Shown piece after piece: positions 24,379 through 58,785 of a stretch of DNA of 64,000 bases (positions are counted from its first letter, which is position 1; each line of letters opens with the position of its first letter). The stretch is taken from the NCBI GenBank assembly GCA_001247695.2, contig LGRX02034414.1, forward strand, positions 44,848-108,847, written 5' to 3'. The position numbers and the translations under genes were made by a program. Below the pieces are notes generated by a model. It was not told where the DNA came from. It saw only the letters and a program-made list of their open reading frames with translations, and did no database searches. The DNA comes from Cymbomonas tetramitiformis. Taxonomy: Eukaryota > Chlorophyta > Pyramimonadophyceae > Pyramimonadales > Pyramimonadaceae.

Positions 24379-26817
24379 TTACGGCTTAATCATCTCATTC
24401 AGTCCTTTCACAAGCTGCTGGTTGCGGTGCAAAAACAGCATAGCCTCTACCTTCCAAGCCGACATGCTCGCACGGAGATGGTCCATCAAGCGCCCAGCAG
24501 AGGAGAAAATACGCTCCACCTCACAACTAGTGGGGTCAATAGCCAAGTGGCACACACCCACCACGTGCATAACAGGGAAGTTCTTCTTGTTCTCAGGTTT
24601 CACCCACACCTGGCCAAGGTGCTGGTCAGGATCTATCTCAAACAGGTTGTTGTCAAGCAAGTACTTGTACCTGTCAACCTCGGTCGATGCGTGTGCGCTG
24701 GGTGCTGCAACAACTGCTTCCGTGCCAGAGCCGTCCGTCTGCTGAGTGCCAGGCAACACCAACTTCCGCTTTGCCAACTGCTCACGGAAGCGCTCACGAG
24801 CTGATACCTTTGCCTTTTTCTGCTCAGGGCTTCTTTCAGGATCCCGCTTGGCAGGCTCCTCCTCCTTGACCTTCTCAAAAAACGGCCGGGCCTTCTCCAG
24901 TTCCTCAGCAAGCTCCTTGAAAGCTTGCGCCCTCACGCCCTGATCCTGCCAAGGGAAAGTGGGGTGCAATGCACAACAGATACGGTCCTCCCTGGTGATT
25001 GGCACACCTAGGTCATACTCCTCATATTTCTCACGGAGCACAGTAACCAAGATCTGAGCGACCTCCGGAAGATCCTCCAGCTCCACGAGCTCGTACTGTG
25101 GGTCTTCCTCATTCACAACCTCTCCCATAGGAGACAGCTCACACCCTTGGACTGTAGATAACTCGAAGGTGGAGGAGTTCACCATTGCCCTTGTCTCCGC
25201 CAGAGCCTCGATCGTGCTCGCAACGAAGCTCGTGCGGCCTCCCTGAATATCAATGTGCACGTCGTGGTGCGCCTCTAGCACGTCAATACACGCCCTCACC
25301 TCATTCCACTCAAACAAAGTGAGCTGCACCTTGTTGTCGCCATCGTGGATGTTGAAGTACACACTTATGGCAGTTCGCAAACGCCACACCTTCGCAAGCA
25401 TCTTGAAAGTCGAGCTCCACCGCGTGTCATTGCGGCTTTCAAGCCCCTGGAAGTCGTCATACAAAGCGAGCATGACCGCCTTAAACTTGCCAGTTGCCTT
25501 GGGCGAGTGGGCAAAATGTCCAACCAGACCAGCCACGCGCCCTATGAGAAGGCGCATCTTGGGGTTCCTGATTGTGCCCTGGCTCTTGGCACTGGGAGGA
25601 GTCCCAGCTATACCAGTGCTCCACTGCACCGCAGAATTCAAGCGATGCCCAAGGCACACCTTGCAAGGAATGTCCAGCTCCTTCGCGAAAGCGTTGAGCT
25701 CTTTGCCAGCACCATCAGTAGTTCCAGCGATAAACACCTCAACCAGTTCCTCAGGGTTTATGCCAAAGTCAAAGCACAACTGCTTCATCCACTGCGAGCA
25801 GTCCTTCGAGGTGTGCTCGCCAGGAAACAAGCGAACCGCCAAGCATATGCGCTCTCGCTCACCAGAAACAGGATCCACGTAGCACACTGAGAACGCACCA
25901 TATGGCTCGCCATTAGAAGAAGTCCACAGGTCAAGCTGGCCATGCATGGCAGGTCCATACTTCACGTATTTCAGGTGCTCCTTCATACGTCCGATAGCAG
26001 TCTCCTTGGCAGCAGCGTACTCTTCCAAAAGAACCTTGTCGAGAGTGTGGTGATGGGGAGGCTCTATAGCCCAACGTGAATTGAAACCGGCCATGTAAAA
26101 CTGGTAGCCAATGCCATAACGCATTTCTGGAGGGCGAAGTTCCACAGCACACATAACCACGAAGTTACGAGTGTGGAACGCTCGAGTCTCTTTGCTGAGC
26201 TTGGCAGTCGAGCGTTCCTCGAGAGTGACCCCTAGTTTATCGAAGCTGGAATTCTGAACTGCCTGCTGAGCCACCTTGGCCTTGTTCTCCTTGCCTACCT
26301 CGCTTTTCACACTGCCCATCTGAACTCGCATTGTGGTAGCTGGGTGTGCACTCTTGAAGTGTTTGATAAGATTGCCAGTGCTACAGAAACGTGGCTCATG
26401 TTTGATCAAGGCACCACAGGTTGTCTTGCTGACATTCTCGTCGCAAACACACATCGCATTCTTGCCGGATATGGGAAGAGCTGGCGTAAACGAAACCACG
26501 TGCTTCCAATACCCAGAGGTCAACGGTTTGCCATTTTTGCCCAAACTATCGCAAACCTCAACTAGATGCTCTTTTCCATCGCGGTCGCGACAGAGGATCG
26601 TACTGCCAACAGCTGGAAATATTGGCGCAACAACATCTTTCACGTTGGAAGCAGGCGAACCACCCGCCTTCGCTTCACAGTCACCGCTCGCTTGAATACC
26701 ACCAGAGCTCGCTCCACCGGCGCTAGCGCTACTGTTGACGCCTGAAGATGCACTGCCAGTGACCTCATCTTCTGGAACCTCTTTCTCGGACGAATCTTTT
26801 GGCTGTAGGTCAGTCAT
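24379..26817 (-). CDS. hAT transposase
   Basis: Cuts and re-inserts the surrounding element. The start at 26817 (MTDLQPKD) gives 812 residues; the frame is open 40 codons further up, but that part lies in subterminal repeat. In order: an acidic, Ser/Ala-rich N-terminus; a BED-type zinc finger (CVCDEN..C.....H...C....LIKHFKSAHP); the DDE catalytic core with ATTDxA-like AGTTDGAGKELNAF, CLGHRLNSAVQWS and DTRWSSTFKML; and a C-terminal hAT dimerisation domain with FPVMHVVGVCHLAIDPTSC, EVERIFSSAGRLM and a final AMLFLHRNQQL helix. All expected hAT blocks are present with no stop or frameshift, and no intron is needed. A Lys/Arg-rich insert (PAKRDPERSPEQKKAKVSA) before the dimerisation domain may serve as a nuclear signal. 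Confidence 0.93.
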   Translation of the reverse strand: MTDLQPKDSSEKEVPEDEVTGSASSGVNSSASAGGASSGGIQASGDCEAKAGGSPASNVKDVVAPIFPAVGSTILCRDRDGKEHLVEVCDSLGKNGKPLTSGYWKHVVSFTPALPISGKNAMCVCDENVSKTTCGALIKHEPRFCSTGNLIKHFKSAHPATTMRVQMGSVKSEVGKENKAKVAQQAVQNSSFDKLGVTLEERSTAKLSKETRAFHTRNFVVMCAVELRPPEMRYGIGYQFYMAGFNSRWAIEPPHHHTLDKVLLEEYAAAKETAIGRMKEHLKYVKYGPAMHGQLDLWTSSNGEPYGAFSVCYVDPVSGERERICLAVRLFPGEHTSKDCSQWMKQLCFDFGINPEELVEVFIAGTTDGAGKELNAFAKELDIPCKVCLGHRLNSAVQWSTGIAGTPPSAKSQGTIRNPKMRLLIGRVAGLVGHFAHSPKATGKFKAVMLALYDDFQGLESRNDTRWSSTFKMLAKVWRLRTAISVYFNIHDGDNKVQLTLFEWNEVRACIDVLEAHHDVHIDIQGGRTSFVASTIEALAETRAMVNSSTFELSTVQGCELSPMGEVVNEEDPQYELVELEDLPEVAQILVTVLREKYEEYDLGVPITREDRICCALHPTFPWQDQGVRAQAFKELAEELEKARPFFEKVKEEEPAKRDPERSPEQKKAKVSARERFREQLAKRKLVLPGTQQTDGSGTEAVVAAPSAHASTEVDRYKYLLDNNLFEIDPDQHLGQVWVKPENKKNFPVMHVVGVCHLAIDPTSCEVERIFSSAGRLMDHLRASMSAWKVEAMLFLHRNQQLVKGLNEMIKP

Positions 26818-26884
26818 GATTGCTAAAATGCCACGCAGGAGTGTGCCGCCGAGAACGGGGACCTTTCTCCTCGCAACATGTGAA

Positions 26885-27090
26885 ATTTCGGAAAAGTACC
26901 TGAGAAGTACCTGAATTCCACAGGTAGGACCTGGCAAAATCCTGACCGTCAGGTAAGGTACAAGGTACTTTCAATTCTGAAAATCGGACACAGGTACAGG
27001 TACAGGTACTAGCCAACCAGGTACAGGTACAGGTAAAGGTAGTACCTAGTACCTGTACCTGGCAAAAATACCCGAGTACTTTTGTACCTG
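26885..27090. repeat. AGGTAC/GTACCT subterminal array, right end of hAT
   Basis: Dense AGGTAC and GTACCT words in both orientations next to the right terminal inverted repeat, mirroring 23655-23790. Confidence 0.8.
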
Positions 27091-29067: not shown

Positions 29068-31230
29068 TCATGCTGCTGCTTTCTGAGTAGGCCTCCATGT
29101 CGAAAATCCAAAAGATCTGGCAGCCTGAATCACTGCCTTTTGCATATCCATGTAGCTGTCAAAGAGCATGTTGAAGTAGGGCACGGTGTTCTTGGTGGGA
29201 GGAACCGGCTTGGTGTAGGGGTCAGCCAAGTTCTTCTCCGAAGGTACCCGCCAGCATATGATCCAGCCCAGTCTGACAAAGTCTCTGAGCATATGGAATC
29301 TGACCAGAACATGCTTGATCTTCTGGGATAGCGGGATATTCTCAGCAATAGATCTGCATGCATCATTATCCAGGAGAAGAGGAACAGGAAGCTCCAATCT
29401 GGGGCAGGTCGCTGAGGCTGGAAGGTATTCTGTGCTTCTCATATTCTGATAGTCCACTGGCCTGCGGTCTGATTCTGAATAAATCTCGAGCTCATCTGTC
29501 ACTGACTTGCCATCAGGCCTGACACCACCGACTCCTGTACCCGTAGGTGTAGTGTAATCCAGGAGTTTAGTCAGGAGAGTGCCCGGCTGTAACCCAGGGT
29601 AGCTGAATGCAATGTCAGTGGCGACCCTCTCTGCTTCAGTGATCTCAGAATCAAGTCCAGTAGTAGAGGGTGGCTGTCCCTGAATAGGGTGTTGTATATA
29701 GCCGAATATTTCTGTCAGCATAAACATGAGAGATACCACCCGCTGAGCTGCAGTAGATGCTGCAACATATTCTGAACCCGTAGAAGATGTCTCTGTGATG
29801 GTCTGTCTGACTGTACCATACTGTAGAATCATGCCACAGAAGAATATCACCATGCCGGAGTATGATCTAGCTGAGTTTTCCAGGTCTCTGGCCAGGTCAG
29901 CATCGGAGTACACAAACAGTGTGAGCACACGTGCTGGCCTCTCAGGGTAATAGAAGGCCATTCTGTAGTGTGCCGTGCAGTCCAGATACTGTGCAATTCT
30001 GATAAGAGCCTTCATTGAGTCCTCTGAGGGACAGGCCACAAACTGTGATAGGTAGATAACTGCATAGTAGATATCTGGCCGTGAAGTCCTGCTGTGCCAG
30101 AGCAGAGACCCAAGGATAGACCGATAGGGCTTTACCAGAGTGAGGTCAGGGTCTGCTGGTTTCGATATCACAAGCTTAGAGTCCATAGGTGTACGGAAGG
30201 GTCTCTCGGGTATGTTGTTAGCTGTCATAAGGTCCTTAATCTGCCGAGACTGATTGAGGTACACCCCCTGGTCATCATGCTGTACTGTCATCTGAAGGAT
30301 TGAGGATATAGGACCCAAGTGTTTGGCCTTAAAGGTTGCTCTGAAAGCAGTCCAGAAGGCCCTCTCAAGGGCCGTGGAACAGGCCATACCAAAGTCATCC
30401 ACATATACCACACACATAGCCTTAACCGTAGGCGTGTAGATGAAATAGATACAGGCATCATGTGTAGACTGCCTGAATGATTGTCCCATGTATTTGAAAC
30501 TGAGCATAAACTGTTTAACCATCCTCTGCCATGATGCACCGGCAATCTTGAGGCCGTACAGCGCATATGAGAGTAATGCATAGCTGTAGCCCTTAAAGGT
30601 ATAGCCAGAGGGAAACTGAATCCACACGGGGAACTCAAGCTTAGCATGCATAAAGGCCTGAGACACGTCCAGATGTGACACCACCAGCTGGAATAGAGCT
30701 GCAAATATGAATAGCAGTCTGAAAGCTGATATCTCTGGGGTAGCTGAAGAGGTCTCCCACGGAAGGTAGCCTGTAGTTCTGCTGCCGTCACCAGCCATAC
30801 GGGCTTTAAATATCTGATATGGCTTGCCTGCCCCAGTAGGGTCAGGTTTGAATGGCATAGACAGTACAAATAGTGTAGTAAGGTACTGTGCACTAGCCGG
30901 CGGTGTTCCCAGCTTGAGCTTCTCCTGATTAACCATATCACCAACCTCCTGATCCATAGCTTTTAGCCAGTCTTCAGACTGTGGTGAGGATAGGGCCTGT
31001 TTGACACCGTGAGGTAGCTTAATCTCTGGTGCCGAGACCTCAAGCATATGGGTAATAGTAGAGGTAGGAGCATCAGAGAGAAACTGCTCCATGCTGCTGA
31101 AACTGCCAAACATGTATTCTGCTCTGAGGTCACTGTTGAGGGTGTCAGAGAAGGGCAGGTTATCAAGCCAAGGATGATACGTGGGAGCCGATTGAGCACC
31201 TTGCAGGTGCGTCGATCTCTGAGTTATCAT
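29068..31230 (-). CDS. Ty1/copia polyprotein fragment: reverse transcriptase and RNase H
   Basis: A 720-residue frame covering the C-terminal half of a copia pol. RT: LDVSQAF at 187-193 (catalytic Asp188), YALYGLK at 222-228, and YVDD at 276-279. RNase H: YSDAD with Asp443, GSEYVA with Glu487, LDNDACRS with Asp621/Asp623, and the terminal ADPYTKPVP typical of copia. About 95 residues between the second and third RNase H motifs (~515-610) are extra compared with the usual family and rich in Thr/Gly/Asp. Gag, protease and integrase are missing upstream, where another transposon fragment begins on the other strand, so this copy is 5'-truncated although its frame is open. Confidence 0.9.
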   Translation of the reverse strand: MITQRSTHLQGAQSAPTYHPWLDNLPFSDTLNSDLRAEYMFGSFSSMEQFLSDAPTSTITHMLEVSAPEIKLPHGVKQALSSPQSEDWLKAMDQEVGDMVNQEKLKLGTPPASAQYLTTLFVLSMPFKPDPTGAGKPYQIFKARMAGDGSRTTGYLPWETSSATPEISAFRLLFIFAALFQLVVSHLDVSQAFMHAKLEFPVWIQFPSGYTFKGYSYALLSYALYGLKIAGASWQRMVKQFMLSFKYMGQSFRQSTHDACIYFIYTPTVKAMCVVYVDDFGMACSTALERAFWTAFRATFKAKHLGPISSILQMTVQHDDQGVYLNQSRQIKDLMTANNIPERPFRTPMDSKLVISKPADPDLTLVKPYRSILGSLLWHSRTSRPDIYYAVIYLSQFVACPSEDSMKALIRIAQYLDCTAHYRMAFYYPERPARVLTLFVYSDADLARDLENSARSYSGMVIFFCGMILQYGTVRQTITETSSTGSEYVAASTAAQRVVSLMFMLTEIFGYIQHPIQGQPPSTTGLDSEITEAERVATDIAFSYPGLQPGTLLTKLLDYTTPTGTGVGGVRPDGKSVTDELEIYSESDRRPVDYQNMRSTEYLPASATCPRLELPVPLLLDNDACRSIAENIPLSQKIKHVLVRFHMLRDFVRLGWIICWRVPSEKNLADPYTKPVPPTKNTVPYFNMLFDSYMDMQKAVIQAARSFGFSTWRPTQKAAA

Positions 31231-34251: not shown

Positions 34252-34650
34252 ATGTCTCACGCGAGAGTCTATGACCTTAAACTTAATTTAACTAGTTTCT
34301 TTGACAACAATAAATGCTGGTTCGTTAGTGTGACAATACGGCTTGCAAATAACTCTATACAGCTTACTGCAACCTTCAAACCGCATATAGATAACTTAAT
34401 ACAGTTTGCAGGTAAATTAATACGGCTCATAGTTAAACTGATATGGCCTGAAGAAAACTTAAACAAACTCATAGACGACCCGATGAGGCCTGCTACTAAC
34501 ATTAAGCGGTCTATGGTAAACTTATCGCGGCTTCCAAATAACTTGAAATGGAATGCATTTTACCTCAAAATACGGGCTGCTAACTTAACACAAGATATGT
34601 ATCTTATAGTAAGCCCAGCACAGGCCGAAATATATTTTAAATGGAAATAA
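34252..34650 (+). CDS. Short upstream ORF of the giant retroelement (may be leader only)
   Basis: A 132-residue frame that ends 10 bases inside the giant ORF in a different frame (the two overlap at ATGGAAATAA). Most of it is translated from the ten 21-bp repeats, giving seven-residue periods such as LIQFAGK-LIRLIVK-LIWPEEN-LNKLIDD. A heptad-like hydrophobic pattern results, but the open frame could be a by-product of a 21-bp unit lacking stops. No Gag or RNA-binding motif is seen. Confidence 0.3.
   Translation: MSHARVYDLKLNLTSFFDNNKCWFVSVTIRLANNSIQLTATFKPHIDNLIQFAGKLIRLIVKLIWPEENLNKLIDDPMRPATNIKRSMVNLSRLPNNLKWNAFYLKIRAANLTQDMYLIVSPAQAEIYFKWK
34336..34545 (+). repeat. Ten 21-bp tandem repeats in the giant element's leader
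   Basis: Ten consecutive 21-bp units fit the consensus ATACGGCTTGCAGATAACTTA, with diverged but in-register copies. They start 300 bp before the giant ORF. Tandem monomers upstream of LINE ORFs are known to carry promoters in other LINEs; that function is inference here. Confidence 0.85.
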
Positions 34651-37600
34651 AAATAGATAAAGACATAAGCGGCAGCATAATTATGACATATTACATAATG
34701 AGACACCTCTTGAGATGTGAGGAAAATATTATTAAAACACGAGCGGAGCTGCAAACAACCACTTACGGGCCCACTATCATGTGTTTTCATTTAATGGCGG
34801 GACTCAGCAAAATGAAGTTGAACCCTAAACAATATTTCCCGGGACCTAGAGTCATAATACACCTAGCCCACAAGAGACCTAAGGCCTGCAAAAGGATAAG
34901 CAAGAGCGCCTTGAAATACATGATTCAAAACCCCAAAATGGCATGGCTTTGGGAGAGGACACGGACCCAAAATACTAAGAAATCAAAAATGAAATCACCC
35001 CTAAGAATAATGAAACATAAAACCCACCACAAGAAGGATGACGATACCAAACAACATAATATGCCTGAACCTGAGCAGATGTTAAGCGGTGGAGCAAGCA
35101 CCGAAGATGATGCAGTAGATGAAACTAAAATGGCCACGGAATCACTTTTTTCAGAAAAGGGGTGGTTAAATGCAACTCATGTTGGTGATGCAATGAAAAT
35201 ACGGGACCCGAGTACCATAGCCCCTATGGACCTCACAGACATGATGCTAAAGATGACAGGGGAGGACCAAAAACTCACACAACTTATTAATAGCAGACTC
35301 AAGAAATATGGCCACACACAAATAGGCGTGTGTGACAATATACATTGGCGTCTTATAATGATCCGCTTATCATCATCCGGGAAAATAGAAGCTTACATAT
35401 ATGACCCCTTTGGAGATAAAGCCGAAAGAGAAACCATTAATATGATTGAGGTAGCACTCAAAACCTGGCTGAAAATTTTCATAACCATTACAGAATATCA
35501 GGAATCCACAATTACCATTAGCAAGGATACATTTCAAACAGATACATATAACTGTGGCACATGGGTAGCAAAAACCGCCTTCAAATGGGCACAATGGAAC
35601 AGAGGTTCGCACCAGACCTCATTTTTCGAGTACCTAAAATCTGATTTATGTAGTGGGGAGTATGGCGACAAAACAATGCAAAAGGAAATACATAAATACC
35701 GGTTAGAAATGAGGAAAGAAATAGGACTGCTGGCCAAGAATACCCGCAACACACTGGAGCTCAAACACTTGGAGCACGCTGGAAACGACGCCGTAATCAG
35801 CGGCCCAAATATGACCTCACCTTCTCACCATATCCTCACACGTAGAGGTGCCACACCTAAAAAGCAGATAGAAACTCTGATTGAAACTTTTAGATTGAAA
35901 TGGAAGACACACACCACTAATGAAACAATTGTTTCAGAAGCCATCGAATCGCATAGGAAATATCACCACACCTCGAGCACGGATAACACCAACATTCAAA
36001 TCCATCTTCTTGTGACTAATGACATATGGTCAACTGCAGTCCACATCATTCCAGAAAGAAAGATTATTCACTGTGAGTTTGATATCTCTAACAATAAATA
36101 CCAGAAAGACATTTTCACACTTCTCCCTCAAGACCTAAGTGTGCACCGCATAACCTTGAAACTGGGAGTACATCCGAATAACATGGGGGTTTTCAATTTT
36201 ACACTAGCCCACAAAGCCTTTCACATCTTGCACAACACTAAATTCTTCTCAGCAGCACAATTAAACAGAGACCTACTATACGAACTTGAAAACCTAAATA
36301 TTAGAACTCTACCACAAACGGGCAGAGAAGCTAGGATAATCAAACACGAAAATAACAAAGCCATTTCGACCATACGACAATCACTGAGAACTCACCTTCC
36401 GAAAATTGATGCACATCCAACAAAGCCAAATTCTGAAAACAAAGACTGTAAATCCACCCACACTGCTTATAATCACCTCATCTCAGGCAAAGGAAAGCCT
36501 TCTTGTGAAACCCACACATATGGATACCGCAGGAAGCACTCTCATAAACAAAAGAGAATAATCCTTAAAACCAAATGCACAAACAAAATCTTTGATATTG
36601 AGAACATTTATGACGCAGATGGCAGATGCATACTACAAAAAGCAAAACACAAAAGCGCCATGAAACAGTCGGAAGAAATAGACCGACTCACAAAACTACA
36701 ACTAGCACAACACTCTAACAATTTGATTATAATGGGTATGAATATGAGAGGCCTCCGACACCACAAAGAAGATAAAGACAGTTTAATCAAATTAGAAACA
36801 ATCTGCAATCTTTTAATCGACGGACGGGCCGATATAATATGTATATCAGAAACCAAGGTAAATACTGAAAACCTAGCATTAATTAAAACCCTAATGACAC
36901 AAAAAGGAATCCAATTTCGCACGTCTCATGTAAATGAAAGAGCTTCCATTGGTTCCATGATCCTATGGAATCCGAAAAGTTTACCACTATCCACCTCGGT
37001 CACCACAATCGATGGAGATGCAAAGAGAGCAGTAATGACCAAATTTTCAGGAAATAACGGTTTTGAGCTCTACATAGCCAGCGGTTATATGAATGATGCT
37101 ACATTAGTAGAGGAACAAGTGGAATTATATGACACACTTACTGACTGGGCAGGGAAGGCAGGAAATAATCCAAAAAAGGCCTACGTAGAGATAGGTGACA
37201 AAAACTGTACCATTACCCCAAATCAGCGGGTGTCAGGTGGAAGTTACATGTCATATCAAGAGCATGTCGAAAAGAATAAGCATCTTTTAACTTATTTCAA
37301 CAATGACAGATGTTCTCTTAATGAACTGATAATGGACCGTAATCCAAACACGGAAATTTTCACACATGTCATATCCAAAAACTCAAAAGCAAAACTCACC
37401 CATATCATGGCCAACACAACTATGGCAGAAATGACAGTTAAAACAGGATGGACGGAGGAAAACCCTTATATCATCTCCGACCACGGGATAGTATGGGCTG
37501 AATTTAAGCTCCCTCAAAACGACACCAAATTGGAGATTTTCACCGATACAACATTGCCAACACCTAGATTTAATGGTGCCAAGGAAACCACACATGATGA

Positions 37601-40600
37601 GTACCCAGGGTACCCAATTAGAATGACAAACAAAAATAAGGATACAAAAAGGAAAATAAACAAGAAAGATATTGTAGGACTTCTCGAAGCAAACGGATAC
37701 TGCACAAATGAACTTGTGCACGCGTGCATCAATAAAAACAAAGCTAGAGCATCTATCAGCACCATCAAGGGTGACACCACTGATCTCGACCTTAAACGGG
37801 ATAATACTGACGGCAGCCCCATAACAGTGAGCAAGCTCATAGCTAAAAATAAAGAGACAGACACCATAGAACAATGTCTAAAATGGCACAACAAACCCAA
37901 GGAATGGTGGATTCACCTAAATAGCCCATGGCATGCAGCTCACTTACTCTCTAGAGGAAAGGGGATGCCGGAAGGTGGTCTAAACTTAGGCCATAACGAC
38001 AAAGATAACATCTGGCATATAGGTTCGCCTCACCTTCTAAATAAGAAAGATGTAAATGCCTATCTCAAACGACACCTTTCATTCAGCTCACTGGAAGTTA
38101 AGAAAATCACGAAATCCTACACAGATGAGCACATGACCAGCTGGAATATTCTTCTACATCCCCATATGCCTGCTAAATTCTGGAACCTGTACGGATCTGA
38201 GATGCATTCGGAAAAAATAGACTGCACCGCTCATCTATTTCAATACGCTACAGGCTGGGTGTCTTACACTGAAAGACTACATAGCACACTCGAAATGGAA
38301 AATGGATCGGAAGCAGCTAGAAACGGCGGCACTGGCCTCAAGGAAATGCACCCTGACGCGACATGGGATACCCTGCACACACTGGCACATCAGGCGGCAA
38401 GAGACGCCTTTGGCACCAAGAATCTGAACAAAACTGGGAAGTCCGAAAAACCATCAGCAGTATCTAACTATATATACAAATGGCTAAACACAGTACGCCG
38501 CACCATCAAATATTTGGATACAAGAACTCATGTTAGCAACATTCCAAAGCAAGCCAAAAAGGCTGCCCGCACGCTACCGTTTGCCTCGCTCCAACCCAAA
38601 CACAATGAAGCAGCAGCCACATGGGGATTACGATTGCATGAAAATTATGTAATAATCAGAAATGCTTTTCAGAAAAGCAGAGACACAGACATTGAACGAC
38701 GCAAACTCCGAGAAAAAGAAGCCCTGCAGCATCTTTTCTCAAATAACCTTTCGAGGTTTCTAGACACAGTCATGGGAAAGATGAAACCTACTGAAAAAGG
38801 TGCAGCCGCAACCCCAGGTAGTGATGGAAAGATACCTGAGACAAAAACAGAAAGACTAAACACAACACTAGATGAATACAAAAATAAAAAATTATTTTCT
38901 ACTAACCCGACTGAGCCAGATGAACTCCCTCAGTGGCTTACTGACATTCTCAAGGATAGCCCTAAAATTCCCGATACGGCTGCCGCGAGACTATTGACAG
39001 AAATCACGCACAAAGAACTCCAACAAGCATACTCGGACTGTGGTATCTCTACAGCACCAGGACCCTCAGGGATGAGATACTCGCAGTGGATCAAGGGCCC
39101 AGAGAATTTTCAAGAGGTTACTGTCTCACTTTTTAACCACATTCTTATAACTGGGAAATTTCCAAAGAGTGCAAAATCTGGAGTCATCCTTCCAATCCCT
39201 AAAAATCCCTCTGCACCATGTACAATAGATAATTCTAGACCCCTCACAATGTTGGAAACGGGTCTTAAACTATTTAATACAATAATTGCTAACCGTCTCA
39301 AAACAATACTTAACACCCACCCCATTCTCTTTCCCATTCAAGATGCCTTTCTTCCGAATAAAAATATAGATGACTCACTCCAAATTCTGAATGAAGTAAT
39401 TTCGGATGCCAATAGATACGACAAAGACCTCCACGTAGTTTACCTGGACCTCAAACAAGCATTTGACAGAGCTGAATTCTGGATGAGCAATTTAGCGCTC
39501 AGAAAGTTGGGACTCCCATCACAAATAATCAACATCATCTCAGACATTACCAATGATGCCTCTAGAATGGTACTCACTGAAGAAGGCCTCACGGATGAAT
39601 GGTCCCTAGAATGTGGAGTTCCTCAGGGAGAAGTTTTGAGCCCACTAAGGTTTGTAGCCATTATGGACATTCTGGCAATTTGGTTAGCAAAAAGAGCAAA
39701 CGGTGTAAACCCGACAGGAACCACATACGGATATGAACTGAACTCGGAACGCCATAGACCAGACAAACCAGGAAATAATGTTATTCCTCCCTCCCAAAAC
39801 CTATTAGAAAAGGACACCACTTTAAATATCTTTGCACGGTTCTTTTGTGATGACATCATTCTTGTGGGGAAAACTAAAGACGAAGTACAAGACATGCTAG
39901 GTATAGTTAATGAATTTATGAGCTTCATTGGTATTCCCATCAATGTTAAGAAATCCAAATACTCTTACAGAAAGCGCATCAAACCTCAGGGCAAAACAGT
40001 AACGCGATATGACCTGTCCGATGATTTACTCATCTCAGGGGGACATCTGGAGCCCAATACAAATGACTCAAGTCCTTCTATTGATTCGAAATGGATACCC
40101 CCTGAGTCACCAGAATTCCTCGATTTCTCCAACAGCAAAGAGGTAAACAGATATCTCGGAGTATGGTTTGCACTAAATGGGGAATGGGACAAACAGGCGG
40201 AAATCCTTATCGACAGACTTAAATCTACCTTAATATCCATCCAACTGCAACACATGACTCTACACCAGCTAAGATATGTTATAAATGCGGTTGTAGTTCC
40301 GAGGATGGCATACCCCCTTAAAGTTACCTCAGCAATTGCCAACTCCTCAAAGAATGTCGCAATTGAATTAGACAAAATGATAGCTTCGTTTATAATTAAA
40401 TATTTGGGCTGCCCAGTTGACACCAATCACCAAATAATCTGGACAGCAGTCTGCCAAGGCGGGTACGGTATTGATAGTGTCTTTGATGTTGTAACCGCGT
40501 CGTGTATTACCGAAACTATGAACACCCTGTGTTCTGCGGATGAACACGAATATTGGCAACACAACCACACGGACCGTATCACTGATCCCCACCTCATCTC

Positions 40601-43600
40601 ACTATACCGTAGAAACAGCAATCTATGGCTTAAAATAATAATTCAAAACATGAACAACGAAATGGGTAAAAATGCCATCTCGGGTTTCCCCTTATCACAC
40701 TATGCAACCTACAGTCACACTAAAGACAAACGCTTTAACTGGTTTAGGCGTACAGGTCACATTATGGCAAAACTTGGATACGCTATCGACTCTAAAAATT
40801 ACCCTGAAAATGAAGCGGGTGAAACCACATTAATCACCACCCTTCCCAGACAACTCTACATGTCGAGGAATGTTACCTCCGCAATACAAAAATACAACCT
40901 CAAGCACACAGGTTCCTTTCTAACTCCCTGCGGTGGGATGTTAAAAAACTGGCAAGAAAGTAAAGGCTTTTTCAGGCTGAATGGTAATAGACCCCCTGGA
41001 TGGCTAACCGAAATCGAAAAGGAAATGCTTCAAAACCCTGTAGATTTGGACCCACAGGCTAGATATGTCAAGAAACAATATAGAGACAACATAGTACCCC
41101 CCGACACGGGTGAATTTCATTGGAAAGGAAATGGTGACCGAAATTCCATCTCTCTTATTCACATTACCAATATTGACTTAGAGGCCATGTCAATACAATA
41201 TACAGAATACAGTAACAATGCCATAAACCCTAATGTCTTTGTCAGAATCGAAGGTACCAACAGTTTTAAATACGACTTTGAATATAGCATCACCAATGAC
41301 GGTTGCATCCTAATTCCAGCAGGTTCTATTTTCGAATATAATGACCATATGGACCCGCCCTCTTCTGTCCTTGCTACAGTCAGTGATATTAACTCACACT
41401 ATGATTACATCTCAGACAGACAGTATGAGACCATTATTGCCAGAATGAAAAACAAAACTGCGGAGGAAGAAAGTGAATACAGCTGCCCTAGCGACTCGGA
41501 AGAAGAATCCACCCCCAACGCAGAAAAGAACAAACTAATGGAAGATTATGATATGGCAAGCGATGGTTCTCTATTTGCTGGAAAGAAAACAGCATGCAGT
41601 GGTGCAGCATATGCCATAAAAAACTTTGACAACGGGATGCCACTTGTTCGGAAGATGAATATCCCCCCCTCAAGAACTTTCTCCGCATCGGGGCTTCTTA
41701 TCAAGGAAGATATCCAAAACCCGAGTAGCACATCTGCTGAAATTGCGGGACTGCGATTTCTACTCACAGAACAAAAAGAGAAACTCCTCAAATCTATTAC
41801 TCCAATGGTACATGCCATTGACTCCATGGCAGCAATATCTGCTGTAACAAAGGATGGCAGGTCCATGAGTGCTCGGGACAAATTACGTGAAGCTAATCGC
41901 AGAGATGTGCAGGCTGTTCGCCTACTATTAGAAGAACTTGGATTTTACAGTGAAGGAAACCACAGCAAAATCATCCTCAAATGGATTAGGGGTCACAATA
42001 ATGACAAAGTCCATGACAGAGTGGACCGTACTGCTAAAAGAGCCTCATTCAGAGGGGGCTGTCTAGACATCTCTCGCTACGACCCTGCCGAGGAACTACC
42101 CTTCTCGTTATTCTTTTTTGAGGTCCCTATCTTAGGCGATATCCGTAGTCACATTAGAAGAATTCAACGTCTCTCACACTATCATAATTGGAGAACCCTA
42201 CAGTCTCAAGGGAAGTACTTGAGAATGCTCAACGAGAATAACACCGCCCCCACTAAAGATATTTCCAAAATAACACCTAAAGCTTTCACCGCTTCTAGAA
42301 GCAGAGAACTCCTGGGTCTCCAAGCCTCTCCAGCACGTTTATTTAAACTGGGGAAAATCGGGACTGAAAACTGCCCCTACTGCCAACAGAATACAAAATG
42401 CACCTTCGAACACATCCAACTTGAATGCTCAGGACATAATAATAGCTTGCATAGTCTTAGAACAACCCAAGATGGCGAACTAAGGAAAATCATTGCCGAA
42501 GAAATCTCAGAAAAGCCCAAACTACTAAACCCTGGAAAAGGTACCACATACATCAAAACAGAGCCATCGAAACTTTTTCCACTTGCTGACCTTAGACAGG
42601 AAATGAAGGAGGAATTATACTTACACGCTCTCCCGGAAGCTAGCATGTACCGACCATCAAGTTCAAAAAAGAATACCATTGCTGTGACCGCTAAACCTGA
42701 AGTGAACCATGTCACGGGGACAATTAAATATCCCGAACTCCAATATGTCCAGAAGAAAGAGTTTTGGAAACTTTTGGCCTGGCACCGCCTTTCCAACAAA
42801 GTAGTTCCATGCTCACTTGCGGAGTACTCGGATAGGGCACACGATATCCACGAAGCACTCAATGCATGTAAGTTTGAATCGGGGGATCCTAAAAATTGTT
42901 ACGCAATCAGAAGAAGCCTCTTAGATATTTTGGTGGATGACAGGAACCTTGACAAAAACGGCTGTGAACTTTTCTCCAACCCACTAAATGCCCACCCTAG
43001 AATTCACTCGAGAAGATGCATACCCACCACAAGAATGAAGAAAGCTCTCAGGCCCTTTTGCCATCATGGGAAAATTGGCTTTGATGGTCTCGCTTGGGAT
43101 GCCTACGTGGATCCGATAACAGGCATCGGCAGAATCGTTTATGGAAATCCCCCCTTTGATGGGAAAGAAAAGGGCAAATCTTCGGCGGTTATGACTACCT
43201 TGGAAATGGGACATAAAGCGGCCAACACCGTCCCCGGATTTTCAGGAACATGGATTCTTCCGCTGTCTCCCAAAAACCAAAAAAGATGGTTCGACAAAGG
43301 TTTTAAACTTGTTTTCAGATTCCCGCATAACACTATTCCATTTATCCCACATGGTTATTGGACGGGTGATGACCCCTACGTTCTTCCAGGTGGCGGATGC
43401 TATAAGGATGACTTTTCGGATGTCGTTATCATAGCTATAGACAGTGCACCCAGTGATACTCAACCAGCCTTTGATTGGAGGCCCACACAGAAAAAGATTG
43501 CCAGATGGTTCCTCAATGTACTTCCTAAGTCCAGAGTCACGGAGAAGAGGCTAGAATACACAGGAGTCAGCCCTGATATTTGGAATGAAGTTATGAACGA

Positions 43601-44027
43601 AAGCGACAAAGTACTTCCTTCTTCGCTTTGCCCATGGCCCACTCAAGACCCTCCCTATCATCAGAGTGATGCTGAGCATTATTATGGTGGTCACCATGAC
43701 ACGACAATCACCAACGCAAATTCAAAGCCCTTTATTAGCACCGTGAAATGGCCCAAAGTACTTACACTCATGGGATACCTCCCTCCTCTTTTTGGTACTG
43801 TCCTCAACACGATAGGTGTTCCCCGTGGCAAGATTAAACCTCTCCTCAAAAAACTTTCAAGAATCTGTAGACAACACACCAAAAATAGGCGAGACGTGTT
43901 TCTGTTAAACACCACTACCACCTTAAACACTGACCCGCATACAGTTGACATCTCGAGCAGTGAGACCATGACAGAAACAGAAGCTGTGCAGCAATCAAAC
44001 GACTTTCTTCAAACCCTTCTGCAGTAA
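34641..44027 (+). CDS. Giant non-LTR retrotransposon polyprotein: Ulp1 protease, APE endonuclease, RT, RNase H, zinc finger, methyltransferase-like
   Basis: One uninterrupted 3128-codon ORF. Residues ~170-330 form a Ulp1/C48 cysteine protease with the full catalytic set His235 (IHW), Asp255 (YDP), Gln299 and Cys305 (Q-x5-C, NCGTW). Residues 694-957 form an APE-type endonuclease: Asn701, Glu737 (ISETK), GDKN at 852-855 and SDH at 946-948; the usual 'ID' catalytic pair reads Thr920-His921. RT (~1440-1850): TAPGPSGMRY, motif A YLDLKQAFD (Asp1603), GVPQGEVLSP and FCDD at 1735-1738, where FADD/YADD is usual. RNase H: Asp2308, Glu2367, Asp2394, His2452, Asp2462. A finger follows with C2578, C2581, H2591, C2596. 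Residues ~2770-2935 resemble a Dam-like adenine methyltransferase with GNPPF (2835-2839) and a WILPLSPKNQKRWF block. APE-LINE proteins are typically 900-1500 residues, so this is two to three times larger. Confidence 0.93.
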   Translation: MEIKIDKDISGSIIMTYYIMRHLLRCEENIIKTRAELQTTTYGPTIMCFHLMAGLSKMKLNPKQYFPGPRVIIHLAHKRPKACKRISKSALKYMIQNPKMAWLWERTRTQNTKKSKMKSPLRIMKHKTHHKKDDDTKQHNMPEPEQMLSGGASTEDDAVDETKMATESLFSEKGWLNATHVGDAMKIRDPSTIAPMDLTDMMLKMTGEDQKLTQLINSRLKKYGHTQIGVCDNIHWRLIMIRLSSSGKIEAYIYDPFGDKAERETINMIEVALKTWLKIFITITEYQESTITISKDTFQTDTYNCGTWVAKTAFKWAQWNRGSHQTSFFEYLKSDLCSGEYGDKTMQKEIHKYRLEMRKEIGLLAKNTRNTLELKHLEHAGNDAVISGPNMTSPSHHILTRRGATPKKQIETLIETFRLKWKTHTTNETIVSEAIESHRKYHHTSSTDNTNIQIHLLVTNDIWSTAVHIIPERKIIHCEFDISNNKYQKDIFTLLPQDLSVHRITLKLGVHPNNMGVFNFTLAHKAFHILHNTKFFSAAQLNRDLLYELENLNIRTLPQTGREARIIKHENNKAISTIRQSLRTHLPKIDAHPTKPNSENKDCKSTHTAYNHLISGKGKPSCETHTYGYRRKHSHKQKRIILKTKCTNKIFDIENIYDADGRCILQKAKHKSAMKQSEEIDRLTKLQLAQHSNNLIIMGMNMRGLRHHKEDKDSLIKLETICNLLIDGRADIICISETKVNTENLALIKTLMTQKGIQFRTSHVNERASIGSMILWNPKSLPLSTSVTTIDGDAKRAVMTKFSGNNGFELYIASGYMNDATLVEEQVELYDTLTDWAGKAGNNPKKAYVEIGDKNCTITPNQRVSGGSYMSYQEHVEKNKHLLTYFNNDRCSLNELIMDRNPNTEIFTHVISKNSKAKLTHIMANTTMAEMTVKTGWTEENPYIISDHGIVWAEFKLPQNDTKLEIFTDTTLPTPRFNGAKETTHDEYPGYPIRMTNKNKDTKRKINKKDIVGLLEANGYCTNELVHACINKNKARASISTIKGDTTDLDLKRDNTDGSPITVSKLIAKNKETDTIEQCLKWHNKPKEWWIHLNSPWHAAHLLSRGKGMPEGGLNLGHNDKDNIWHIGSPHLLNKKDVNAYLKRHLSFSSLEVKKITKSYTDEHMTSWNILLHPHMPAKFWNLYGSEMHSEKIDCTAHLFQYATGWVSYTERLHSTLEMENGSEAARNGGTGLKEMHPDATWDTLHTLAHQAARDAFGTKNLNKTGKSEKPSAVSNYIYKWLNTVRRTIKYLDTRTHVSNIPKQAKKAARTLPFASLQPKHNEAAATWGLRLHENYVIIRNAFQKSRDTDIERRKLREKEALQHLFSNNLSRFLDTVMGKMKPTEKGAAATPGSDGKIPETKTERLNTTLDEYKNKKLFSTNPTEPDELPQWLTDILKDSPKIPDTAAARLLTEITHKELQQAYSDCGISTAPGPSGMRYSQWIKGPENFQEVTVSLFNHILITGKFPKSAKSGVILPIPKNPSAPCTIDNSRPLTMLETGLKLFNTIIANRLKTILNTHPILFPIQDAFLPNKNIDDSLQILNEVISDANRYDKDLHVVYLDLKQAFDRAEFWMSNLALRKLGLPSQIINIISDITNDASRMVLTEEGLTDEWSLECGVPQGEVLSPLRFVAIMDILAIWLAKRANGVNPTGTTYGYELNSERHRPDKPGNNVIPPSQNLLEKDTTLNIFARFFCDDIILVGKTKDEVQDMLGIVNEFMSFIGIPINVKKSKYSYRKRIKPQGKTVTRYDLSDDLLISGGHLEPNTNDSSPSIDSKWIPPESPEFLDFSNSKEVNRYLGVWFALNGEWDKQAEILIDRLKSTLISIQLQHMTLHQLRYVINAVVVPRMAYPLKVTSAIANSSKNVAIELDKMIASFIIKYLGCPVDTNHQIIWTAVCQGGYGIDSVFDVVTASCITETMNTLCSADEHEYWQHNHTDRITDPHLISLYRRNSNLWLKIIIQNMNNEMGKNAISGFPLSHYATYSHTKDKRFNWFRRTGHIMAKLGYAIDSKNYPENEAGETTLITTLPRQLYMSRNVTSAIQKYNLKHTGSFLTPCGGMLKNWQESKGFFRLNGNRPPGWLTEIEKEMLQNPVDLDPQARYVKKQYRDNIVPPDTGEFHWKGNGDRNSISLIHITNIDLEAMSIQYTEYSNNAINPNVFVRIEGTNSFKYDFEYSITNDGCILIPAGSIFEYNDHMDPPSSVLATVSDINSHYDYISDRQYETIIARMKNKTAEEESEYSCPSDSEEESTPNAEKNKLMEDYDMASDGSLFAGKKTACSGAAYAIKNFDNGMPLVRKMNIPPSRTFSASGLLIKEDIQNPSSTSAEIAGLRFLLTEQKEKLLKSITPMVHAIDSMAAISAVTKDGRSMSARDKLREANRRDVQAVRLLLEELGFYSEGNHSKIILKWIRGHNNDKVHDRVDRTAKRASFRGGCLDISRYDPAEELPFSLFFFEVPILGDIRSHIRRIQRLSHYHNWRTLQSQGKYLRMLNENNTAPTKDISKITPKAFTASRSRELLGLQASPARLFKLGKIGTENCPYCQQNTKCTFEHIQLECSGHNNSLHSLRTTQDGELRKIIAEEISEKPKLLNPGKGTTYIKTEPSKLFPLADLRQEMKEELYLHALPEASMYRPSSSKKNTIAVTAKPEVNHVTGTIKYPELQYVQKKEFWKLLAWHRLSNKVVPCSLAEYSDRAHDIHEALNACKFESGDPKNCYAIRRSLLDILVDDRNLDKNGCELFSNPLNAHPRIHSRRCIPTTRMKKALRPFCHHGKIGFDGLAWDAYVDPITGIGRIVYGNPPFDGKEKGKSSAVMTTLEMGHKAANTVPGFSGTWILPLSPKNQKRWFDKGFKLVFRFPHNTIPFIPHGYWTGDDPYVLPGGGCYKDDFSDVVIIAIDSAPSDTQPAFDWRPTQKKIARWFLNVLPKSRVTEKRLEYTGVSPDIWNEVMNESDKVLPSSLCPWPTQDPPYHQSDAEHYYGGHHDTTITNANSKPFISTVKWPKVLTLMGYLPPLFGTVLNTIGVPRGKIKPLLKKLSRICRQHTKNRRDVFLLNTTTTLNTDPHTVDISSSETMTETEAVQQSNDFLQTLLQ

Positions 44028-44528
44028 TTTTCAAAAGTCTTGCAATACAAGATGGTTCCCCGTCCCCTAGGGGAGGGGCCCTCCCCCCCCCCTCCCCACC
44101 ACCCCCCCCCCCGCCCACCCTGACCCCCTTCCCAACGTCTCCAAATACCCCCTTAATTCTTCGACTTCCTTCCCCACCGCTCAGATTCAGCCACCCCTCC
44201 ACTCACCCGGCCATGGCTGCTTCTCCATCTTCTAGAGTTTTTTGCTTAGCGCCTAGCTTTTTCTCTAGATGTCACCCTGCTGAAAAGTGGGTTGAGCCCC
44301 TTTGTGGGCGCGCTATAGTAGAGGGAGTAGCCCCTGGTGTCTTCACTAGCCTGCTTTGCAGGGATACCGCACTCTCAGGACTTTGTCCCCTTTGCTAGCG
44401 TAAATGTTTTATTATTATTATTACTTAATTTAAAGAATGATATTGCCATAGCCACTCCGGGATATGTTTTGTACTCAAGGGAAGCTGAAGTTATTCTCGC
44501 CAATCAGAGGAGGGTTCCACTGAGCCAC
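44028..44528. other. 3' flank of the giant element with C-rich tract
   Basis: 44063-44120 is a polycytidine-rich tract (runs of 8-12 C) that may be the element's 3' terminus or a simple repeat at the insertion site; no poly(A) is seen. The remaining sequence has no supported gene. Confidence 0.45.
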
Positions 44529-46637: not shown

Positions 46638-48192
46638 GTAAACGGCAACAGATCATAGCTTGCAGCCAATCCGCCTTAGGCTGATAGTGGACTGTAAGTC
46701 TGACAATTATTAACACAAGTGCTAGTGCACGTATATTGGGCCCAAAACATGTCGTTGGCGGCCAAGCAACCTCAAAGTTAGGGTAAGGGTTGGTTTCATT
46801 CATTTGGAATGTCAATAGACCCTGCCTTTCAGGTAAAAATTGATGTTTTCTTTACTTCAATGTATGTAAGCCTATTTTCAGATTCGAATTTCGCCTCATA
46901 ACGAGTGAGTTACAAGGGTTGGGGTTTGTCCCCTAAGCGGCATGGCGATGAGATGTTTTGGGGGACAAATCCCAAGCATGGTTCCTTTGTGACTCACTCA
47001 TTGCGTGGCCAAATCAAAATCTGAAGCAAAAGGGTCATAGGGTTTGAGCTGACACAGGATTAGTTTCTTGTAGAGCTCGAATCTTTGTAACAAGCTTCAA
47101 GCAGGAGAGTGTTGCCCAAAGAGATTGAAACATATATAGCTACGAAGTGAATGGCCACGACTAGACCGAACGTACATGCGCCAGCATAAGTGCTTGCCAA
47201 GTATAAATGCTAATAATTGTAACCCCTACCTGAGGGCTATTAGTGGGAAATTTTGAAGATCCCTGACAATAAAGCCGCTGAGTTGTATCATCATCATTGG
47301 TGATGGCAGAGACATCGTAACAAGTAATTGCTTACAAACAAGTCCCGTGGCAAGAATTCTAGCATTTGGGAATGTACACCTCTCAGGCGCCCCTTCAAAG
47401 CCGGGGCCTGTCGCCATGGCAATGGGGGACTCTGAGGAGGGCCTACCAGGGCGGGGGAGGACGTCACTGTCCAGGAGGGCCTCAACTTGGACTCGGAAGA
47501 CTTAGAGTTGGCAGGGGGAGATAGTGTACAAAATCCCAATGTGGGATGCCTAGCTAGTTGGTGCCTTGATTGGGATTTGCTCGGACAGTGACGAGGCTGA
47601 TTCTGCCATGGCCGGGTCCGCCGCCGGGCCGGTGGTTGTACTTGCTTGCTTGCCGATGTCGGCCCGGGAGGGGCATCAAGAGTGCCCGCGCCGGTGATGG
47701 GGCCAATGGTGGATGGGGCCCGTGTGACCGGCAGCTCCGGGGCTCGTGCTAGGCGGGCTTCCAACTGCGCAGGTGGGAGGACCTATGGCGGAGCGCGTTG
47801 GTGGGCCCGTGGTGGAGCCCAACGGTTGGGCTTGTGCATGGTCCCAGCGCAATCATGGAGCTGGTGCTCAAGCCTACTCCCGAGGGTGGGCTCGTCGGGT
47901 AGAGGCAACAATAGGCGACTTGACAGATGTGCCGGTGGACGCGCTGGTTGACGAGTATATATGCGGATGGACATGTTTGCGGGTTATTGTCGGTGATGAG
48001 CCGGTGGTTGGGTCAGTGGGAGAGTCCATGGTGTTCCATGTGATGGGACCCATGGTTGCATGGTGAAGCCCAGCCCCGGCGTTCGCATGCCCGAGGGGGC
48101 AGAAACGGGCAAGCTCGCGGCTAGGCCTGCAGCGGTGCCCGTGCGTGAGCCGACTACTTGCGCGGGGACCCTTCTCGCGCTAGTGGAAGGGT
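46638..48192. other. Start of the 12.1-kb intron 2
   Basis: No gene assigned. It holds a foldback sequence (46877-47025). From about 47400 it is a GC-rich stretch whose open frames on both strands (up to 156 codons) are compositionally biased (Pro/Arg or Gly/Val-rich) and have no motifs. Confidence 0.5.
46877..47025. repeat. Small foldback sequence in intron 2
   Basis: TTTCAGATT...GAGTGAGTTACAA...TGGGGTTTGTCCCC pairs with its reverse complement GGGGACAAATCCCA...TTGTGACTCACTC...AATCTGAA. Arms of about 55-60 bp with mismatches; possibly a MITE. Confidence 0.75.
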
Positions 48193-51100
48193 GGAGAAAT
48201 TACATTACAACTCTATCATTACAATCAAAAGTCCGAGAGTGCCCGAAGGTCCACATCAACTCCTAACAAACAGGAAAAGCCCAAATGTCCTACAGCAAAA
48301 AACTTCTCAACAAATAAAGCCTATCATCAAGCACAACGGGCGAGATTCACTGCAGAAAGTCTTCCAACGCTCGGCTATGCCACCTGAAGGCTTGCTCCAT
48401 GTCGCGCGACCATAATCTTCTACCCCCGATAAGACTCAAAATAAAGTCAGGGTCGACCACGTTGCTGAGATGATCTCGGGAACGAAGTCGGACGCCTCGG
48501 ACGTGTCTTCTCCTGACGCACTCCTCCGATAACGGCTTTGCCTGTACATACAGGCAAAGCCGTATACACCCAATCACCCCCCCCGCAACAGGCACCAGCC
48601 TGTGCGGGAAGACATCGCCGTACAAGCGCAGTTTCCGCCTCTCCTCGTCACCAACTATATGAAGCGGCACACTGCTCGCCCGCCTCACAGACAATGTAGC
48701 ACACCGCAAGCCGACCCCCACGCACATTGATGATGATACGCCGCCTCCACCCGTTGTAGTTGAGCACCGTGATGCCCGGCCTCCAATGCGGCGAATAGCT
48801 CCGATGATAAATATGGGTCTTCTTCACGGAGGCCGGGTCGAACGCATTGCGCAACATCTCCACCAACACATCCTGAACTGTATGCTGTTGATTGGTGAAC
48901 ATACCACTGCGGTGACTGGAGGCGAGGTAGTGGTACCCAAACTTATCCACCTCCCCTCCACAAAGACACCGCCCGGTTTCCACCGCAGCTAGACCTCTCC
49001 CATCGGCGGATTTGTGATATATACCCGGCTGCAAGCATCAATAAATAACTGATGCAATGGGCTTGAGGTGAGAGCCCCCATCCTCCGGCAAAGCATTAAG
49101 GTGCCACGTGGCACCATCACGGGAGAGGCTAAGCACTCTGGCACAAACAATGGGGCTCGCGGCATCAAACAAATGAAGCCAGTCGGAACCACGTTGGCAA
49201 ATAGTAAGCTCCTTCTGACTTACTTGTCATACCGAATGGCATAGAAACTCCCCCAAGCAGGCGCCTCCTCAGGCACCTTGCTTGAAGCCCTCCAGCATTG
49301 GGTGCTCGTCCGCCTCCGCAGCCTTGACTCTTGCGCCCCGCACGTCCTCCATCGCTGCCATAAGGCCCGCAACCAGGGGGTACACCCCGGTGGCCTTCCC
49401 TCCGGGGCCCCCAGATGCGTGAACAGACCCCTCGCCACGCAACGGGAACATCATTACCAAGCGCTTCCACACATGCGCCCAAGTCCCCAACCAGCTAGCT
49501 GGCGCAAGCCGCTGCGCCAATATCAGCCCCAGCCCCCCCCATTGGGTCGGTAACTGGCTGAGCGCCACGGCCTCCTCGCCCAGCAGATATGGGCTGTCCG
49601 CCACCTCCTGCAAACGCTGTTTGATGCCCGTGTCACGCTCGAGAGCCCCCCGCCTAAGCTGGTGCGGCGGACCCCCCTCACCAGATGCATGAACCGTGGA
49701 TGGGCGATGCATAATCTGCACCGGGGGATCATTGAGCTTGGGCAAGATAGCCCCAGCCCCAATTGCCATCTTGATGCATGGGTCTACCACCCGGGTATCC
49801 ATCTGCACCGGAATCCCAAGCACCCTAATGCTCTCCAAAGGAGCCACCGCCCGAGGCATTGGGTCACCAGAAGCATCAACGACATCCCACAAAGCACCAC
49901 ATGCCCCCAACGGGCTGAAGACGGCGCTCTTCTTCACATTTAGCTCAAGCCCAATTCTTACAAGCAACAAGAAGAGAGTGTCATAGGTCGCACGGCCCGC
50001 ACCTGAACCGACTCCTCCAATACATGGATGCCATCAAGATAAGCAATGATGTCCGCGCCCGGGTGCGCCTGCAAAGCAGCCTGTAGCAATGGCTGTAACG
50101 GAGCCGCCATAAAGAACTGTCTCTTCCGCCGATCGCACCCCCTGGAACTCATCACCTGCCCTCCGCCACCCAAGTTTCGTCTTGTGCCGGAAGCAGCTCT
50201 CCGTCATGCCCAAGAGGCCGGGAAATCCTCGAACACCGCCTCAAAGATCGCCCGCCAATGGACCGTGTTGAAGACATTCTATCTTGCAATCAATCTGGAG
50301 GGCGCCACAACAGGCAGGACCGCCCCCAGCGATACATGCACAATTTGGACACACAGGTCTGCGCCCCCTGGGACGTCGACCCCTACCTGCGCCGCCACTT
50401 AAGCTGCCTCCTCCTCCGGAGGCGATCCAAAGTGTGCTGCAAACTGCCCACGCAACGCGCTCACGCATTCTTGCGATCACCTTAACCGGCATCCTCCTAA
50501 GCGCCTCCTCGAAAGCAATAATTGGCCGCACCCCACCGTCAGGCTTAAGGAATTCTGGCGAGGCGTGCCCCCAGCCATAAGCTACGCACGGCGGAATTCC
50601 CGGTGGCACCTTGTTGGGCACGAGCTGCTCACACGCATGCATGTTGGATGGCGTACACAGCTACACACCGTCCCCCACGCCAAAGACAACTCTGAGATGC
50701 TTGAACCTGAGTTGATGAGAGCACCCACGGCCCAAAGCCACCGGCAGCCTCCTATCTACACTTCGCCTCCACGGCAGCCTCCTCGAGCGCAATATGGGCC
50801 GTGTGCACGTGCGCCGGCGATCCCTTCCCCACTAGGTGTAGCGCCTCAAGATCTTCCAATGTCTCGGGCTCCAGCCGTCCAGTGAGGCGAGGACCCCAGG
50901 GTCGAGGTGGCAAACCGCCTTCGCAAACTGCCCCTTCTTCACCAAGCAAGCTCACAGTGCCACTAGCCTCTCGTTCTCATTATCCACAGCAAGGTTCGTT
51001 CCACACCACCCACCGCATGACGCCAGCAAACTCGTCCTTAGCACGCTTTGGAACGTGCCGAGCGGAGAGCAAGGGGCACGCAAAGAACTCGGACGACTGC

Positions 51101-53430: not shown

Positions 53431-53817
53431 ATTTCTCTTTTGCTCGAATCCTCATTTGCCAAAGGCAGGCACTGCAATACATTTCATTAAAATGATTTTG
53501 TAAAGTGTTTAAAATGCATTTTGTGCTTTTTACATGCTTTCTAAATTCATGTTTTTGATGATATGTCCAGACTGTCTGTGCACGTCACCAAAAGGAAAGA
53601 GTCCTCTGGGTCGGGAGCGGTGGGAAGAGCAAAAGGAACAGAGCTGAACAGGCGTGTCGCTTCGTGGCTACTTGTACATCCTGTTTGTGTCACGGAGCTA
53701 CATGTGTCATTCGGCTCTACTGCAGCAGGAGTCACGGATTCTGAAAGTCTGAAACCACAAAAATTCTGTTGCACTCCAATTTGAACATTTCTCTTTTGCT
53801 CGAATCCTCATTTGCCA
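53431..53817 (-). repeat. Split direct repeats B2-A2-B1 (3' side)
   Basis: B copies ATTTCTCTTTTGCTCGAATC... at 53431-53461 and 53787-53817 (31 bp, identical). A2 at 53625-53788 is identical to A1 and overlaps the first two bases of B1. A 163-bp stretch (53462-53624) lies between B2 and A2. These repeats template reconstruction of element ends through a circle in PAT/Ngaro models. Confidence 0.9.
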
Positions 53818-55267: not shown

Positions 55268-55470
55268 TTTGAGGGCCCGAGCAGCTCGGACCCTCCCAGC
55301 CTGCTCGGAGTGAACAGGTCCCTGCGCCGTGGCATGATCACCACCTCGGTGGCCAGGGCTTCCAGCTCCCTGAACCAGGACTGTCCCGGCCAGTACGGAG
55401 CCACCACCGTAGCAGCGGCCCCCTCCTCCCGCAGCTTGTGCGCCACCTCGTCCAGCAGCGCCCACGGGGG
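55228..55470 (-). pseudogene. Frameshifted C-terminal half of the methyltransferase-like domain
   Basis: In the -1 frame the sequence continues PPWALLDEVAHKL, then VVAPYWPGQSWFREL and DAVMFFIEARP, ending at 55228. One additional C in the 55466-55470 run restores the NPPW motif of the Dam-like fold and a single pol ORF of about 690 codons. The rest of the domain has no stop, so the shift is very recent, an assembly error, or (less likely, lacking a canonical slippery heptamer) a recoding site. Confidence 0.75.
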
Positions 55471-58571: not shown

Positions 58572-58735
58572 AAGAGCAAAAGGAACAGAGCTGAACAGGC
58601 GTGTCGCTTCGTGGCTACTTGTACATCCTGTTTGTGTCACGGAGCTACATGTGTCATTCGGCTCTACTGCAGCAGGAGTCACGGATTCTGAAAGTCTGAA
58701 ACCACAAAAATTCTGTTGCACTCCAATTTGAACAT
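58572..58735 (-). repeat. Split direct repeat A1 (5' side)
   Basis: The 164 bp are identical to 53625-53788. They begin AAGAGCAAAAGGAACAGAGC on the plus strand and end CCAATTTGAACAT. The identity of the two copies implies recent insertion. Confidence 0.92.
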
Positions 58736-58785
58736 ATCATAAGAAAGTTGGGGGTTGTGGGATTGTGCCCGGGTGGAAGGAATAG

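Follow-up and report, generated by a model that had tools for sequence, protein, structure and literature searches.

A Cymbomonas LINE polyprotein carrying a putative PCIF1/CAPAM-like RNA methyltransferase domain and a CE-clan protease

A 64,000-nucleotide stretch of the genome of the green alga Cymbomonas tetramitiformis (contig LGRX02034414.1; the whole stretch is termed here the window) contains what is apparently an intact retrotransposon lacking long terminal repeats (LTRs)--that is, a long interspersed nuclear element (LINE)--of a family that we found undescribed. Its single open reading frame (ORF) joins an N-terminal cysteine protease to an endonuclease, a reverse transcriptase (RT), an RNase H, a zinc knuckle and, near the C-terminus, a conserved domain whose fold and sequence motif point to PCIF1/CAPAM, a methyltransferase of RNA caps. 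On balance, these modelled and sequence features lead us to favor the view that the element encodes its own RNA N6-adenosine methyltransferase, which would act on the element's own RNA and most likely close to the cap.

The element, its reading frame and its relatives

The ORF (34641..44027, forward strand, as are all parts of the element) runs from ATG to TAA without interruption through 3128 codons, corresponding to a polyprotein of 3128 residues and roughly 350 kDa. That this frame is real, as the original prediction held, is indicated by an in-frame TAA at 34638, immediately 5' of the ATG, by the chance expectation for a stop-free run of its length (log10 P about -81 from base composition) and by the 89-266 stops found in each of the other five frames. 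Its G+C content is 42.2%, versus 49.3% in the window. The Cymbomonas assembly paper gives 51.4% GC and 38.5 Mb of LINEs for the genome, and such an element is not described in the available part of that paper (PMC10675990).

The element as a whole (34292..44422; 10,131 bp) is enclosed by two exact copies of an 11-bp sequence, ACTTAATTTAA, of which the left lies at 34281..34291 and the right at 44423..44433, directly 3' of a (TTA)n tail. This 11-mer occurs exactly twice in the window (at 34281 and 44423), and we read the pair as a target-site duplication around a LINE. When the upstream 3.35 kb was shuffled 2000 times with dinucleotides preserved, the 11-mer turned up in 1 shuffle and at least one of nine anchored 11-mers in 10; the anchored count is the better guide, since the match first came to light when 180 bases were searched without anchoring, a search that also gave a 10-base match. 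Because the element itself could start with A, the duplication is perhaps 9-11 bp long, with an end that can be shifted by 1-2 A. A 5' untranslated region (UTR) of 349 nt (34292..34640) leads from the duplication to the ATG, and a 3' UTR of 395 nt (44028..44422) ends in the (TTA)n tail, ATTATTATTATT. No LTRs were seen, there being no long direct repeat on either side of the ORF; what is found instead--a LINE-type RT (RVT_1), an APE-type endonuclease, a target-site duplication and a 3' tail--is characteristic of LINEs.

In a first protein search the only close relative was P0002, which aligns over 70% of the query at 28% identity; three further matches were distant LINE proteins. Searching again with the RT core of P0002 returned 13 proteins, 11 of which (P0002 and P0006 to P0015) possess the family RT, P0016 and P0017 falling outside it. 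Including the window protein, the family has 12 members, whose 12 rows lie on one side of a branch with 99/98 support versus 8 other rows; because these eight outsiders are few and mostly long-branched, no named LINE clade can be assigned. C-terminal queries also matched a 582-residue C. tetramitiformis protein, CYMTET_2905 (70% identity over 31% of the query), and a 329-residue protein (85% over 67%). The C-terminal part of another protein, P0025, matches the C-terminus of the element behind an unrelated secreted-looking protein, and probably stems from a chimeric contig.

In the window protein alone RVT_1 is the only domain above the Pfam cut-off, the others having been assigned via relatives, profiles and structure. 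From these sources the domain set first proposed--Ulp1-type protease, APE, RT, RNase H, CCHC finger and methyltransferase-fold domain in one LINE-type polyprotein--gains support: relatives show APE, RT, RNase H, CCHC and the C-terminal 'NPPF' domain as one set. It was also considered at the outset that the ORF might be a fusion of separate elements, whether by chance or through assembly. P0025 suggests that chimeric database records occur, and the protease is in frame in only 3 of the 12 family members; but the same domain order recurs in independent relatives, P0007 has C48, APE and RT within a single protein, and the target-site duplication surrounds the whole element, whose ORF has no in-frame stop. 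A fusion is accordingly regarded as extremely improbable and, for the stretch from APE to methyltransferase, as contradicted by the sequences compared.

The methyltransferase-fold domain and its likely substrate

The putative PCIF1/CAPAM-like domain spans residues 2664-2958 (42630..43514). The GNPPF region first noted near the C-terminus lies at residues 2835-2839 (NPPF at 2836-2839), and the methyltransferase fold anticipated there is borne out by structural comparison: PCIF1 is the best fold match, covers model residues 5-299 and has a Z-score some 6 to 8 units higher than those of the two DNA methyltransferases compared. Asn-Pro-Pro is invariant in all ten aligned members, with the fourth position occupied by Phe in seven and Tyr in three (NPPF/NPPY); a pattern FxSxxN ... 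NPPF ... NTxVxLxQ is, by eye, common to human PCIF1 and relatives of the element; and the domain is on average conserved almost as well as the RT. Pfam PF12237 (PCIF1) yields nothing above its curated cut-off (best E 0.015, 15.3 bits vs 31.1), with sub-threshold matches in 4 of 9 segments. PCIF1 itself N6-methylates the cap-adjacent adenosine, and changing its NPPF to NAAF gives an activity-deficient mutant (PMC11506431, in excerpt).

The label 'Dam-like' originally attached to this domain finds no support, in that Dam PF05869 has no match at E up to 1 in nine members, nor up to 10 in nine core segments (a scan whose filters discard most weak matches), and the nearest fold is that of PCIF1/CAPAM. 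Because of this best fold match and the missing PF05869 match, RNA would be a likelier substrate than the element DNA first suggested. That the domain instead methylates DNA adenine (N6-methyladenine), thereby marking the element's complementary DNA or the insertion site in the manner proposed for the Dam-like domains that DIRS elements carry, we consider unlikely, albeit worth keeping in mind, given the lead of PCIF1 over the DNA methyltransferases and the nine members lacking PF05869. Less likely still is a domain that has kept its fold and lost its activity, acting instead as a module that binds RNA or the cap and recruits the element's mRNA. The Phe/Tyr exchange and the fact that one relative, P0015, manages without the domain would suit such a module, but an invariant Asn-Pro-Pro and a conservation near that of the RT are hard to explain without catalysis.

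Several observations weigh against the proposed RNA methyltransferase. Foldseek aligns the structure model with PCIF1 at low TM-scores (0.35-0.40; root-mean-square deviation 5.4-5.6), and the model itself is of moderate confidence (predicted local distance difference test score 70.6). The window member has no Pfam match for a methyltransferase, and other families match core segments similarly weakly (DUF832 in 2 of 9, best E 0.027; CMIP6, 0.042; ArlS_N, 0.13). An hhalign comparison with one human PCIF1 sequence gives a probability of 2.1% (E 0.022), a PDB profile search up to E 10 does not list PCIF1, and when 5.8 billion proteins were searched by profile, none of the nine matches was a cellular PCIF1. 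In one relative, P0006, similarity is higher for the APE than for the methyltransferase (39% versus 36%), and P0015 lacks the methyltransferase segment while keeping the C-terminal extension, through deletion, splicing or an assembly gap. Finally, elsewhere in the polyprotein, APE residue 920 (window position 37398) is Thr (LTHI), as against Asp (LDHI) in six of the eight aligned members that are not gapped at this position.

The N6-adenosine methyltransferase that we favor would fit into the element's life cycle as follows. Insertion would proceed by target-primed reverse transcription--the scheme of established LINE biology--in which the APE nicks the target, the RT copies from the 3' tail and the RNase H removes the template RNA. 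The C-terminal domain would methylate the element's RNA in cis, within the ribonucleoprotein where the polyprotein binds the RNA encoding it; the nearest known activity is that of PCIF1 on the cap-adjacent adenosine, and the element's own mRNA would be its simplest target. Such methylation would benefit the element's transcript by making it more stable or better translated or by hiding it from host RNA sensors. The element would offer a natural test of the effect of N6,2'-O-dimethyladenosine (m6Am) on a transcript, a matter of conflicting reports (PMC11506431, in excerpt).

The protease, the core domains and the surrounding window

A CE-clan (Ulp1/C48-type) cysteine protease was assigned to residues 170-350 (35148..35690). 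Its catalytic residues H235, D255, Q299 and C305 occupy the positions claimed for them, completing the His-Asp-Gln-Cys set, and the CE-clan fold is found. Pfam PF02902 is not above its curated cut-off in the window copy but is so in P0007 (28.6 bits vs 20.7). The three members with an in-frame protease are the window protein and two relatives, one of which has two copies: P0007 carries tandem CE-clan proteases at residues of about 575-775 and 865-1045, each with catalytic His, Asp, Gln and Cys. The protease would either cut the polyprotein into working parts or strip SUMO/ubiquitin-like modifiers from the polyprotein or from host silencing proteins, roles that we rate about equal; structure does not decide between them because viral maturation proteases and SENPs match the domain about equally. 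That the target is host SUMO/ubiquitin (i.e., anti-silencing) rather than the polyprotein is a real possibility, if somewhat short of probable, inasmuch as the closest folds include those of SENP5 and Ulp1, and the profile matches ULP and SENP chains. With this protease, the polyprotein resembles viral replication polyproteins. The fullest version of our proposal--a LINE polyprotein that places m6Am (or N6-methyladenosine) on its own mRNA in cis via a captured CAPAM-like enzyme, has its own SUMO/polyprotein protease and defines a new algal LINE clade--is put forward tentatively, at somewhat less than even chances.

The APE-type endonuclease (residues 690-960; 36708..37520) was assigned from a weak Pfam match (Exo_endo_phos E 0.024 on the window piece), from P0007 (3.5e-8, above cut-off) and from the family profile, which among solved structures matches LINE-1 endonuclease 1vyb (E 2.2e-9). 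The earlier description 'most APE motifs' was fair: N701, E737, Y816, D853, N855, D947 and H948 are present and residue 920 departs, this position being Ser in P0013 (by alignment) and reading KLSHI in P0014; its Thr may weaken the endonuclease. The RT (residues 1452-1950; 38994..40490), with FCDD, matches RVT_1 at E 6.8e-22, and its family profile is closest to R2 (3e-34), then LINE-1 ORF2p (1e-29), among solved structures. For the RNase H (residues 2300-2475; 41538..42065), weakly matched in Pfam (E 0.0026 on the window piece; 2.1e-5, just below cut-off, in P0013), the D-E-D-H-D set D2308, E2367, D2394, H2452 and D2462 is the same in all ten aligned members, as are C2578, C2581, H2591 and C2596 of the CCHC zinc knuckle (residues 2578-2596; 42372..42428), which was assigned by conservation; zf-RVT matches P0006 and P0008 below threshold. 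A C-terminal extension of no known fold (43515..44024) is kept in the family; residues 2936-3128 share 17-27% identity with six relatives and are mostly of low confidence in the structure model.

The window is a eukaryotic region rich in transposable elements. Besides the element described here, it holds a second LINE-type RT ORF of a different family (667-3312, forward; 881 residues, RVT_1 1.5e-26), a hAT transposase ORF (24379-26937, reverse; Dimer_Tnp_hAT 1e-5), a Copia RT ORF (29068-31230, reverse; RVT_2 3.5e-21) and a DIRS/Ngaro-like unit (53867-57293, reverse) with RT and RNase H at 55338-57293. The downstream ORF of this unit resembles, by eye, a tyrosine recombinase and shows a Tudor-like match below threshold close to the N-terminus (best Tudor_5, E 0.0011); a 167-bp direct repeat of 99.4% identity, possibly a terminal repeat, lies on either side of the unit (53625-53791 and 58572-58738). 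Diverged duplicated stretches (81-87% identity) occur at 48190-48996 and 59495-60497.

Comparison with known systems

Like the element, LINEs with RNase H have an APE, lack LTRs and produce a target-site duplication. NeSL has a restriction-like endonuclease instead of an APE; Dualen/RandI, a green-algal LINE, combines an APE with a restriction-like endonuclease and, to our knowledge, has neither a protease nor a PCIF1-like domain. LINEs with RNase H (I, Ingi, Nimb, Loa, R1, Tad1, Loner, Outcast, plant L1 and Proto1) share both RT and RNase H with the element, and Dualen/RandI of Chlamydomonas shares its RNase H, but a CE-clan protease or methyltransferase is not described for LINEs with RNase H in the available part of the source (PMC4640811). 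NeSL and Utopia-1_TSP of nematodes do have an Ulp1-type protease, Utopia carrying a restriction-like endonuclease rather than an APE, the type found in the element (PMC4640811, in excerpt); 'methyl' does not occur in that paper's main text. A literature search turned up no account of a transposable element with a PCIF1-like domain or of this domain combination.

Retroelements with acquired methyltransferases are known, and those in the literature examined are DNA enzymes (PMC5890265, in excerpt): DIRS elements carry Dam-like domains, and SymbioLINE-Dnmt and SymbioDIRS-Dnmt3 of Symbiodinium and the Gypsy element KnitGypsy-Dnmt3 of Klebsormidium carry C5-cytosine DNA methyltransferases, in the LINE as a separate upstream ORF. 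A CAPAM-type domain in a LINE would, by comparison, be a retroelement-encoded modifier of the RNA cap. PCIF1/CAPAM itself has its fold and NPPF in common with the element's domain, at a sequence similarity below significance, and, unlike that domain, is a cellular enzyme found outside retroelements.
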